A DNA stretch of 64,000 nucleotides. Origin: Ferrimonas sp. YFM. Its GTDB lineage: Bacteria; Pseudomonadota; Gammaproteobacteria; Enterobacterales; Shewanellaceae. Positions within the stretch are counted from its first letter, which is position 1; each line of letters starts with the position of its first letter. A program made the position numbers and the translations under genes. The notes under the pieces were generated by a model. It saw nothing but the letters and a program-made list of their open reading frames with translations. It was not told where the DNA came from and made no database searches. The DNA lies in NCBI RefSeq assembly GCF_030296015.1, contig NZ_AP027368.1, forward strand, positions 1,922,001-1,986,000. The letters run 5' to 3'. Shown piece by piece: positions 364 through 6,026 of the stretch.

Positions 364-498
364 GAGACATCCTGTTCATGTTGTTAATTTTTTGTTTATC
401 TCCTAAGAGTTACGGATTTTTGGGTTTTATACAAGTGTTTGAAATGCATTGATGAATGAACAGGAAGGTATGCTGGTCTACAGCGGTTTTCTCAGGGC

Positions 499-610
499 AA
501 AAAAAGGCCGGTGGGCAAGCCACCGGCAGGGATCACTGAGTTGCTGCCCGGCCTCAAACGGAGTGGCGACAGCAAACCCCTGGGGGTTGTTGAAGGAGGC
601 CGGTAACAAC
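499..610 (-). ncRNA. Candidate structured RNA with intrinsic terminator
   Basis: Read on the minus strand, GTTGTTACCGGCCTC (610-596) can pair with GAGGCCGGGCAGCAAC (555-540), giving a helix of about 15 bp. Inside it sits a second hairpin built from AACCCC and GGGGGTT (575-588). Just downstream, GCCGGTGG pairs with CCACCGGC (527-507) and is followed by seven U (505-499), a textbook Rho-independent terminator on the minus strand. No convincing open reading frame with a start codon and ribosome site fits. The gene downstream in this direction starts at 363, so this could be a riboswitch-like or attenuating leader, or a free-standing small RNA. I do not recognise the family. Confidence 0.5.
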
Positions 611-821
611 ACTAGCCACACTAGCAAGCTGGACAGATGTCTGTCGTCATCAAAATTGGTGATTTTTTGTTCTTGGCTTGGTGGGAACTGTTGAGGTTAC
701 AAGGTGATGCAAAAACTGCCGCTAAAACTGGCTGACGCCGGGTGTCGAGAGCGCAAAGCTTGCCTAATATTCCCTAGATGGTAATTTGCATCCAAAGCAC
801 GTTAACTGAGACTGAGTAACA

Positions 822-2713: not shown

Positions 2714-3049
2714 ATGCCTGCCTACAAGACAGGAAAACGAACCCAGCAGTACAGTGTAGAGTTCAAGGTAAAAGCGGTGACTTGGTCACACCTTCCTCAT
2801 CGTTCAGTAAAGGAAGTAGCCCAAGCTCTGGACATTCATCCGTTCATGTTGTCTCGTTGGCGCAAAGAGTATCGAGACGGCAAATGGGGCATGACAAAAA
2901 AGACTAAAAAGCAGCCAGATCAGCTTTCCAAAAGTGATGAAATCAGCCAACTCAAGCGGCGTCTTGCTGAGTTAGAGCTGGAGAATGATCTGCTAAAAAA
3001 GTGGCAACGGTTTCAAGCCGAGGAACAGAGGAATCGTTCCGATTCGTAG
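2714..3049 (+). CDS. IS3-family transposase OrfA
   Basis: 111 residues with an N-terminal helix-turn-helix (Transposase_8/InsE type: QYSVEFKVKAVTW, SVKEVAQALDIHPFMLSRW) and a C-terminal leucine-zipper-like helix (ISQLKRRLAELELENDLLKK). OrfA binds the element ends and supplies the N-terminal part of the OrfAB fusion transposase. The slippery heptamer A AAA AAG at 2995-3001 is in the right frame to shift ribosomes by -1 into OrfB. The frame is intact. Confidence 0.92.
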   Translation: MPAYKTGKRTQQYSVEFKVKAVTWSHLPHRSVKEVAQALDIHPFMLSRWRKEYRDGKWGMTKKTKKQPDQLSKSDEISQLKRRLAELELENDLLKKWQRFQAEEQRNRSDS

Positions 3050-3888
3050 CGCGCTATCAGGGTAAAATCCGACTATCGAGATTATGCCAGTTTGTCGGCG
3101 TTTCACGGTCAGGTTTCTATGCCTGGAAGAAGCGTCAGCCCAGCCAACGCGCCCAAACTGATAGTGTCCTGAGCAGAGAGATTCAGCGGCTTTTCCGTTT
3201 GTCCAAAGAGCGCTACGGCAGCCCTCGAATTCATGCCCAGTTGAAGCAGAAAGGCATTAGCGTGGCTCGAAAGCGAGTGGCTAGGCTAATGCGTGAACTT
3301 GGCCTTAGGGCGCGTTCTGTGAGGGTTTACCGTCAAATGAATAAGCGGCGGCAAACTTTGAAGGCAACAGAAAACCTGAGGCTGACTAGTGACGCCCCAA
3401 CTGCTGTCAATCAGCAATGGTCCGGCGACGTTACCTACTTAAAGCACGGACGGAAATGGTACTACCTGGCAGTGATTATCGACCTGTACTCCAGAAAGGT
3501 TGTTGGTTGGTCATTCAGCGATAACCGGACGTCAAAATTGACCGAAGGTGCCTTGGTGAAAGCGCTACGTACGCGGCGCCCGAAAGAGGGCTTACTGTTC
3601 CATTCTGACCGAGGTATTGAGTACCTGAATGAAAACCTACAGGGTTACTACAAGCGTCATGGAATCAGACACAGCTTGAACCGAGCTGGTTGCTGTACTG
3701 ACAACGCCGAGGTGGAGTCATTTTTCCATACATTGAAAGGCGAAATGTTCCAGGGAGCACGGTTCCGAGATCATTGGAAGTTGAGAGACGAACTGGCTAA
3801 CTATATTGACCAGTTCTATAACCGTCGACGTTTACACTCGAGCTTGGGCTACCAAAGTCCACACCAGTTCGAGAGACTCGCGGCATAA
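3001..3888 (+). CDS. IS3-family transposase OrfB (DDE integrase domain)
   Basis: This frame overlaps the end of OrfA by 49 bp in the -1 frame and is most likely made as an OrfAB fusion through the slippery site at 2995-3001. It contains an HTH_21-like region (SKERYGSPRIHAQLKQKGI) and a retroviral-integrase-like core: D in WSGDVTYLKHG, D in LLFHSDRGIEYL, and E in CTDNAEVESFFHTLK, which make up the DDE triad. The C-terminus NRRRLHSSLGYQSP is typical. All catalytic residues are present and no stop interrupts it. Confidence 0.93.
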   Translation: MATVSSRGTEESFRFVARYQGKIRLSRLCQFVGVSRSGFYAWKKRQPSQRAQTDSVLSREIQRLFRLSKERYGSPRIHAQLKQKGISVARKRVARLMRELGLRARSVRVYRQMNKRRQTLKATENLRLTSDAPTAVNQQWSGDVTYLKHGRKWYYLAVIIDLYSRKVVGWSFSDNRTSKLTEGALVKALRTRRPKEGLLFHSDRGIEYLNENLQGYYKRHGIRHSLNRAGCCTDNAEVESFFHTLKGEMFQGARFRDHWKLRDELANYIDQFYNRRRLHSSLGYQSPHQFERLAA

Positions 3889-4767: not shown

Positions 4768-5895
4768 TCAGCCTATGTGGACACGTCGCTCCGGTTCAAA
4801 ACGCTGAGCGATGTCCCACAGGTAGCCCGTGAGCTCTCTGGCCACGGCGGTGACCACTTTGTTGTACTCCTTGCCTCGTGCTTGCAACCGCCGGAAGCGG
4901 GCACACAAGCGCAGTTGTACCTCCCAGGAGCGTTGTTGCAGCTTGTGTGAGTGGTACTGCTGACGTATCTGCATTTCTCGGGAGACTTTGGGGCTAAAGC
5001 GATAGGCCCAGGCGGCTTCAATGAGGATGCGCCGAGCGTGGGTATTGCCACATTTGGTGATGTTCCCGCGCCTTTCCCTAGAACCACTTGAACGTTCACT
5101 GGGGGTTAGCCCTACGAAGTTCATGAGCTGCCTGGGGTTGGTGAAACGCCGCAGGTCGCCAAGTTCCGCCATCAGGGTGATGGCCGACAGGAAGCGGATG
5201 CCTCGCAGCGCCGTGAGTTGCTGTACCAAGGGGTACCAGCGCCAGGATTCGGCCAGGGTCTCCATTTCGAGTTCGAGGCGTTGCAGGCGCTCGTAACGCT
5301 CGGTGACGGTGTGAATATAGTCCTGAAAGGTTATCTTCTGTGCTGGTTCGGAGAAGTGGATGTCAGCCAAGTGGCGCTTATAGGCGTCGGTCCAGTTTTG
5401 TCGACCACTGCAAGGGTGGCCATTGCGCAGTAGAAACGATTTGAGCCGCTGACGAGCCTGGCGGAGGTCAAGCATGGCATCCTCGCGACAGCGAATGAGA
5501 TCGCGAATGGCCTCGTCTCTGGCGTCGGGTATGTATATGGGGGCAATGTCTCCCGAACGAGCCAGGCGTGCCAAGGTGCACGCGTCGCGTTTGTCGGTCT
5601 TCACTTTATCGCCAGGAGCTCTTGGGATGAGAGCAGGTGCAATGACCCAGCAGTCGATATCGCGCTTATTGAGATGGCGGTAGAGCCAGAAGCCGCAAGG
5701 GCCGGCTTCATAGACAACACAGAGTTTATTGGCCTTGGTCGCCTGCTGTTTCAGCAGCTTGTCGAAGGCCCTAATGTTGGTGGGAACGGTGCCGTAGTAG
5801 CGAACGGTGTCACCCATCGAATCGTAAATCAAAGCGACATCAGTGGTTTCCTTGTGCACATCCAGTCCGACGAAAAGTGTGTTAGCTTTAATCAT
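4768..5895 (-). CDS. IS110/IS1111-family transposase (DEDD)
   Basis: 375 residues from the ATG at 5895, which has AGGAGG at 5906-5901; the open frame extends further upstream but without a better ribosome site. The N-terminal RuvC-like DEDD domain shows D in FVGLDVHKETTDVAL, E in VVYEAGPCGFWL and D/D in KTDKRDACTLARLA. The C-terminal Transposase_20 domain has LTALRGIRFLSAITLMAELGD and the serine-containing GLTPSERSSGSRERRG. These enzymes act with a bridge RNA that pairs with target and donor DNA. The frame is complete. Confidence 0.93.
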   Translation of the reverse strand: MIKANTLFVGLDVHKETTDVALIYDSMGDTVRYYGTVPTNIRAFDKLLKQQATKANKLCVVYEAGPCGFWLYRHLNKRDIDCWVIAPALIPRAPGDKVKTDKRDACTLARLARSGDIAPIYIPDARDEAIRDLIRCREDAMLDLRQARQRLKSFLLRNGHPCSGRQNWTDAYKRHLADIHFSEPAQKITFQDYIHTVTERYERLQRLELEMETLAESWRWYPLVQQLTALRGIRFLSAITLMAELGDLRRFTNPRQLMNFVGLTPSERSSGSRERRGNITKCGNTHARRILIEAAWAYRFSPKVSREMQIRQQYHSHKLQQRSWEVQLRLCARFRRLQARGKEYNKVVTAVARELTGYLWDIAQRFEPERRVHIG

Positions 5896-6026
5896 GTCGA
5901 CCTCCTGTTGTGTTTGATTGCGTGATACAACAAACAGTGTGGCTCTGGTTTTACTAACCCACGATAAAACGCAGGAGGTCGACCTTTGCACAGGGAATCA
6001 TGATGTCTAGGTGCATGGAGGTAGCA

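Follow-up and report, generated by a model that had tools for sequence, protein, structure and literature searches.

Between efpL and a divergent FAD-linked oxidase gene, this Ferrimonas genome carries a short folded stretch that ends in an intrinsic terminator. The locus raises the question of whether this stretch is a leader that regulates the oxidase or a free small RNA (sRNA), a choice that the earlier sequence-only reading had left standing. The window analysed here is a stretch of 64,000 nucleotides at positions 1922001-1986000 of a single-contig 4.66 Mb genome, and all coordinates below are those of the window. The oxidase gene lies on the minus strand with its start at 363 (1-363 in the window) and encodes an AGPS-like protein of 531 amino acids in the genome, with domains PF02913 and PF01565; its best PDB match is 2uuu, an alkyldihydroxyacetonephosphate synthase (1.1e-76). 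On the plus strand, 458 bases away, lies efpL (EF-P-like, 822-1397; NF003392, 319.3 bits against a cut-off of 216), and since it is transcribed in the opposite direction, no gene of an annotated type reads into the element from upstream. Near efpL, at 2714-3888 and 4768-5991, we also noted by eye open reading frames resembling an IS3-type transposase pair (orfA/orfB) and an IS110-type transposase.

Within the genus, all 14 genomes have efpL and 11 have the oxidase. According to their coordinates, the two genes are direct divergent neighbours in five genomes: that of the window (G000), G009, G012, G005 and G008. By comparison of the first 120 oxidase residues, the nearest relatives are F. futtsuensis (92%), F. 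sediminicola (81%), F. kyonanensis (66%) and F. sediminum (65%). G009 is presumably F. futtsuensis DSM 18154 and G012 F. sediminicola, while G005 and G008 probably correspond to F. sediminum and F. kyonanensis, respectively.

The proposed RNA is read from the minus strand, is approximately 110 nt long and occupies 499-611, with its 5' end probably near 610-612, as judged from the position of the -10 element, and its 3' end in the U tract. A long helix, an inner hairpin and a minus-strand terminator with seven U had been described from the letters alone, and sequence and fold confirmed all three. The helix pairs a 5' arm at 596-610 with a 3' arm at 540-555 through 14 pairs with a small internal irregularity. 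Enclosed by it is the predicted inner hairpin AACCC-CCAG-GGGTT (575-588). The sequence of its stem recurs in G009 around a different loop and is absent at that place from G005 and G008. The best-conserved stretch of the body, GCCACTCCGTTT (556-567), is largely unpaired and forms a nearly invariant run in the four sequences compared below, and an invariant GCCACTCCG stretch is found within the folded body of all four. The terminator stem-loop (507-527) consists of an 8-bp stem (527-520 with 514-507) and a 5-nt loop, followed by one C and then seven T (505-499), as expected for the 3' end of an sRNA; all eight stem pairs are kept in the four sequences.

The predicted fold is only modestly more stable than expected by chance, and its energy is insufficient alone as proof of a structured RNA. 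For 499-612 the z-score was -2.27, with 6 of 200 shuffled sequences folding equally well, and for the wider stretch 490-650 it was -1.37 (20 of 200); the plus strand folds too (z -1.93). Body and terminator together gave z-scores of -2.28, -3.07, -1.88 and -2.57 in G000, G009, G005 and G008, and -0.78 in the decayed copy of G012. It is the comparison between species, and not the energy, that supports the structure.

We searched for further copies with a covariance model (R1) and found the complete element at this position in four of the 14 Ferrimonas genomes (G000, G009, G005 and G008) with scores of 121.7-135 bits, which are high by construction because all four matches are the sequences from which the model was built. 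These copies share the same order of an upstream block, an extended -10, the folded body, the terminator and the U tract. At E <= 1 the model matched something in 13 of the 14 genomes, the next best score being 26.9 bits in G010, a match carried by a terminator hairpin. Across 116 genomes of the family, six were matched at E <= 1e-4; four were the known copies, and the remaining two (G080 and G098) were driven by terminator hairpins. Thus, R1 revealed no further convincing copy in the 14 Ferrimonas or the 116 family genomes, and nothing convincing in other genera. BLAST with a 161-nt stretch matched three of 60 genomes, namely the window's own genome, G009 and, over 28 nt, G044, and a search of the PLSDB plasmids gave no match. 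With the RNA of G008 as the query at E <= 10, many short matches were returned in all 14 genomes and strong ones only in G008 and G005, so that a plain sequence search fails to link the two pairs. A pattern for the core stretch gave no match over 109 loci and was too strict.

Conservation and covariation beyond this strain had been named in advance as a test of the element, and both were observed. Between G000 and G009, 77 of 83 positions of the body, 22 of 22 of the terminator stem-loop and 18 of 18 of the upstream block are identical, compared with 35 of 62 fourfold sites of the oxidase and 43 of 95 positions in a stretch further upstream. G005 and G008 share 17/18 positions of the upstream block and 21/22 of the terminator, and their bodies (59/87) are no better conserved than fourfold sites (43/60). 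Among the four sequences, four of the 14 pairs of the long helix have changes at both positions; broken pairs also occur, one in G009 and others in G005 and G008. Over the whole structure, 95.2% of the alignment cells are paired, sliding the partner lowers this share to 30-54%, and none of 500 shuffles reached the covariation score, figures to be read in light of an alignment of four rows that form two close pairs and that also supplied the structure. The compensatory changes therefore point to a conserved structure on a small sample (n=4).

A fifth copy was left out of this alignment (A5) since it has decayed. In G012, which has the same neighbouring genes, neither the -10 nor the upstream block nor the U tract survives; what remains is part of the terminator stem together with a few bases on its flanks. 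Its efpL is 93% identical to that of the window's genome, compared with 77% for G005 and G008. As G012 is the closer relative by this measure, a loss in G012 is more likely than separate gains elsewhere.

Sequence features at the 5' end suggest that the RNA may have a promoter of its own, composed of the extended -10 TGCTAGTGT (618-626, minus strand; TGGTAGAGT or TGCTAGAGT in the relatives) and a conserved, partly dyad block AATCACCAATTTTGATGA (647-664, minus strand) centred near -44, which is identical at 18/18 positions in G000/G009 and at 17/18 in G005/G008. The AATCnnCAATnTTGATGA block is a candidate regulator site or UP-like element. A consensus promoter scan listed no promoter at the RNA 5' end, and the -35 is poor. 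The -10 and the block near -44 stand where an activator or an UP-like element would be expected, and an independent sRNA with its own promoter fits this arrangement best. A pattern for the upstream block, derived from the four sequences themselves, occurred exactly once in each genome that carries the sRNA and nowhere in the remaining ten. The block has the form ATC-N9-GAT, which is typical of some LysR-type sites. Separately, a near-perfect palindrome, ATCATCAAATTTGATGA, which resembles the upstream block, was found at 1502-1518 of locus L138, in L133 and at the matching place in L139; it sits just past the end of a LysR-type regulator gene in G000 and G009, and near it in G008 (by eye). A near-copy of the upstream block next to a LysR-type gene was inspected and judged to be no promoter.

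We consider it probable that the element is a free-standing intergenic sRNA of about 110 nt, separate from oxidase transcription. This reading draws support from the predicted structure, the terminator, the conservation of the element as a unit, the covariation and the oxidase's own conserved promoter-like block. The last of these (407-434, minus strand) comprises a predicted -35 TTGTAT (429-434), 16 bases and a predicted -10 (407-412) of TTATCT, or TAACTC in G000, approximately 45-70 bases before the start codon. It is better conserved than the RNA body, with 80/83 and 82/85 positions identical within the pairs and 63/85 between G000 and G008. It lies between the terminator and the gene in all five genomes with that gene order, and a similar block precedes the oxidase of G002, a genome in which no copy of the RNA was detected and efpL sits on a different contig. 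The predicted end of the RNA is about 100 bases ahead of the expected start from this promoter.

These observations bear on the view that the element is a 5' leader of the oxidase mRNA, started near 611, in which a riboswitch or attenuator would open or close the terminator at 499 in response to a signal. The element is on the oxidase strand, directly upstream and ending in a terminator, and in the genomes searched it is known only beside the oxidase gene. A leader would be co-transcribed with the oxidase with no promoter between them, whereas the sequence suggests an intervening promoter in all five genomes. Because this block is separate, and a similar one is present in G002 without the RNA, a free sRNA is preferred over a leader or riboswitch. 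Moreover, the oxidase of G012 keeps its promoter block despite the decayed RNA, the spacer from terminator to block is variable (identities of 41/55 and 38/69 in the two pairs), and no alternative antiterminator pairing was seen on non-systematic inspection of the predicted folds. We therefore regard a leader as unlikely; of the two options in the sequence-only reading, the free sRNA was strengthened by the conserved unit in four of 14 genomes and its covariation, and the leader was weakened by the block before the oxidase.

The -35 of the oxidase promoter lies inside a dyad, TTCAAAC-N4-GTATAAA (426-443), and the highly conserved block that bears it (407-443) occurs in five Ferrimonas genomes, with an altered version in G002. 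The PsrA operator motif is TTCAAAC-N4-GTTTGAA. The dyad resembles this operator, and PsrA-type control of the AGPS-like enzyme is possible. With up to two mismatches, the PsrA motif occurs at 20 places in the window's own genome against 12 in the control, a weak excess, and the passages on PsrA and FadR in Shewanella in two publications (PMC3223726, PMC5343134) do not mention this oxidase gene.

It is similarly improbable that the terminator serves to protect the oxidase against antisense transcripts coming from efpL and that the remainder is unrelated folded DNA. The terminator is indeed strong and the rest has a modest fold energy, but the covariation of the long helix argues against this explanation, as does the fact that the -10, the upstream block and the core stretch are all conserved. 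A small protein gene is highly improbable: by eye, an open minus-strand frame of some 45 codons begins at a GTG at 612, but it would cross the terminator, lacks an evident ribosome site and is not kept in G005 or G008 (by eye), and inspection by eye showed no conserved reading frame.

The element is thus real and most probably an sRNA of narrow range within Ferrimonas. Under the free-sRNA reading, transcription would start near 611 from the extended -10 with the conserved upstream block and would end at the intrinsic terminator at 499-505, with the oxidase transcribed separately from the promoter downstream of the terminator. The sRNA would most likely act in trans, with the unpaired C-rich segment at about 556-567 as the candidate segment for pairing with mRNAs, and Hfq would probably bind its U-rich tail. 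Scanning four genomes for targets of the form CGGAGTG-N2-14-ATG gave 36-55 matches per strand per genome against 30-41 for a reversed-pattern control, a modest excess such as would be expected when a motif looks like a ribosome site before ATG, and the scan yielded no specific signal in these genomes. Tentatively, the element could be a Ferrimonas-specific sRNA that is switched on by a regulator binding the AATCnnCAATnTTGATGA block, and that is young, having arisen in the ancestor of part of the genus and been lost in F. sediminicola. If so, the birth and decay of an sRNA would be traceable at one fixed locus. If transcribed, this would be a previously undescribed Ferrimonas sRNA of very narrow range with a visible decayed copy, which would be useful for studying the gain and loss of sRNAs and would leave the general picture unchanged; our literature search found no report of a small RNA for Ferrimonas, the one paper to turn up being on Vibrio harveyi.

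Comparison with known RNA families was another check that had been proposed, and it assigned the element to no family: Rfam gave no match at the gathering score over the whole window. A permissive search of 361-830 returned two weak matches that fell short of gathering, one to SorX and one to a human lncRNA. The same search gave nothing for the G008 stretch and nine matches for that of G005, all far below gathering, mostly to C/D-box snoRNA models, and taken as chance. The likeness to SorX (RF02784) is weak and lies in the terminator hairpin and the layout; the match scores 18.7 bits (E 0.051), where gathering requires 46.6, and SorX was not among the G008 or G005 matches; we consider it most likely a chance match to the terminator. 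The closest known class is that of the Hfq-dependent, trans-acting intergenic sRNAs of gammaproteobacteria. Although it matches no Rfam family at gathering score, the proposed RNA resembles this class in its probable own promoter, its length of about 100 nt, its folded 5' part, its exposed C-rich stretch and its U7 terminator.
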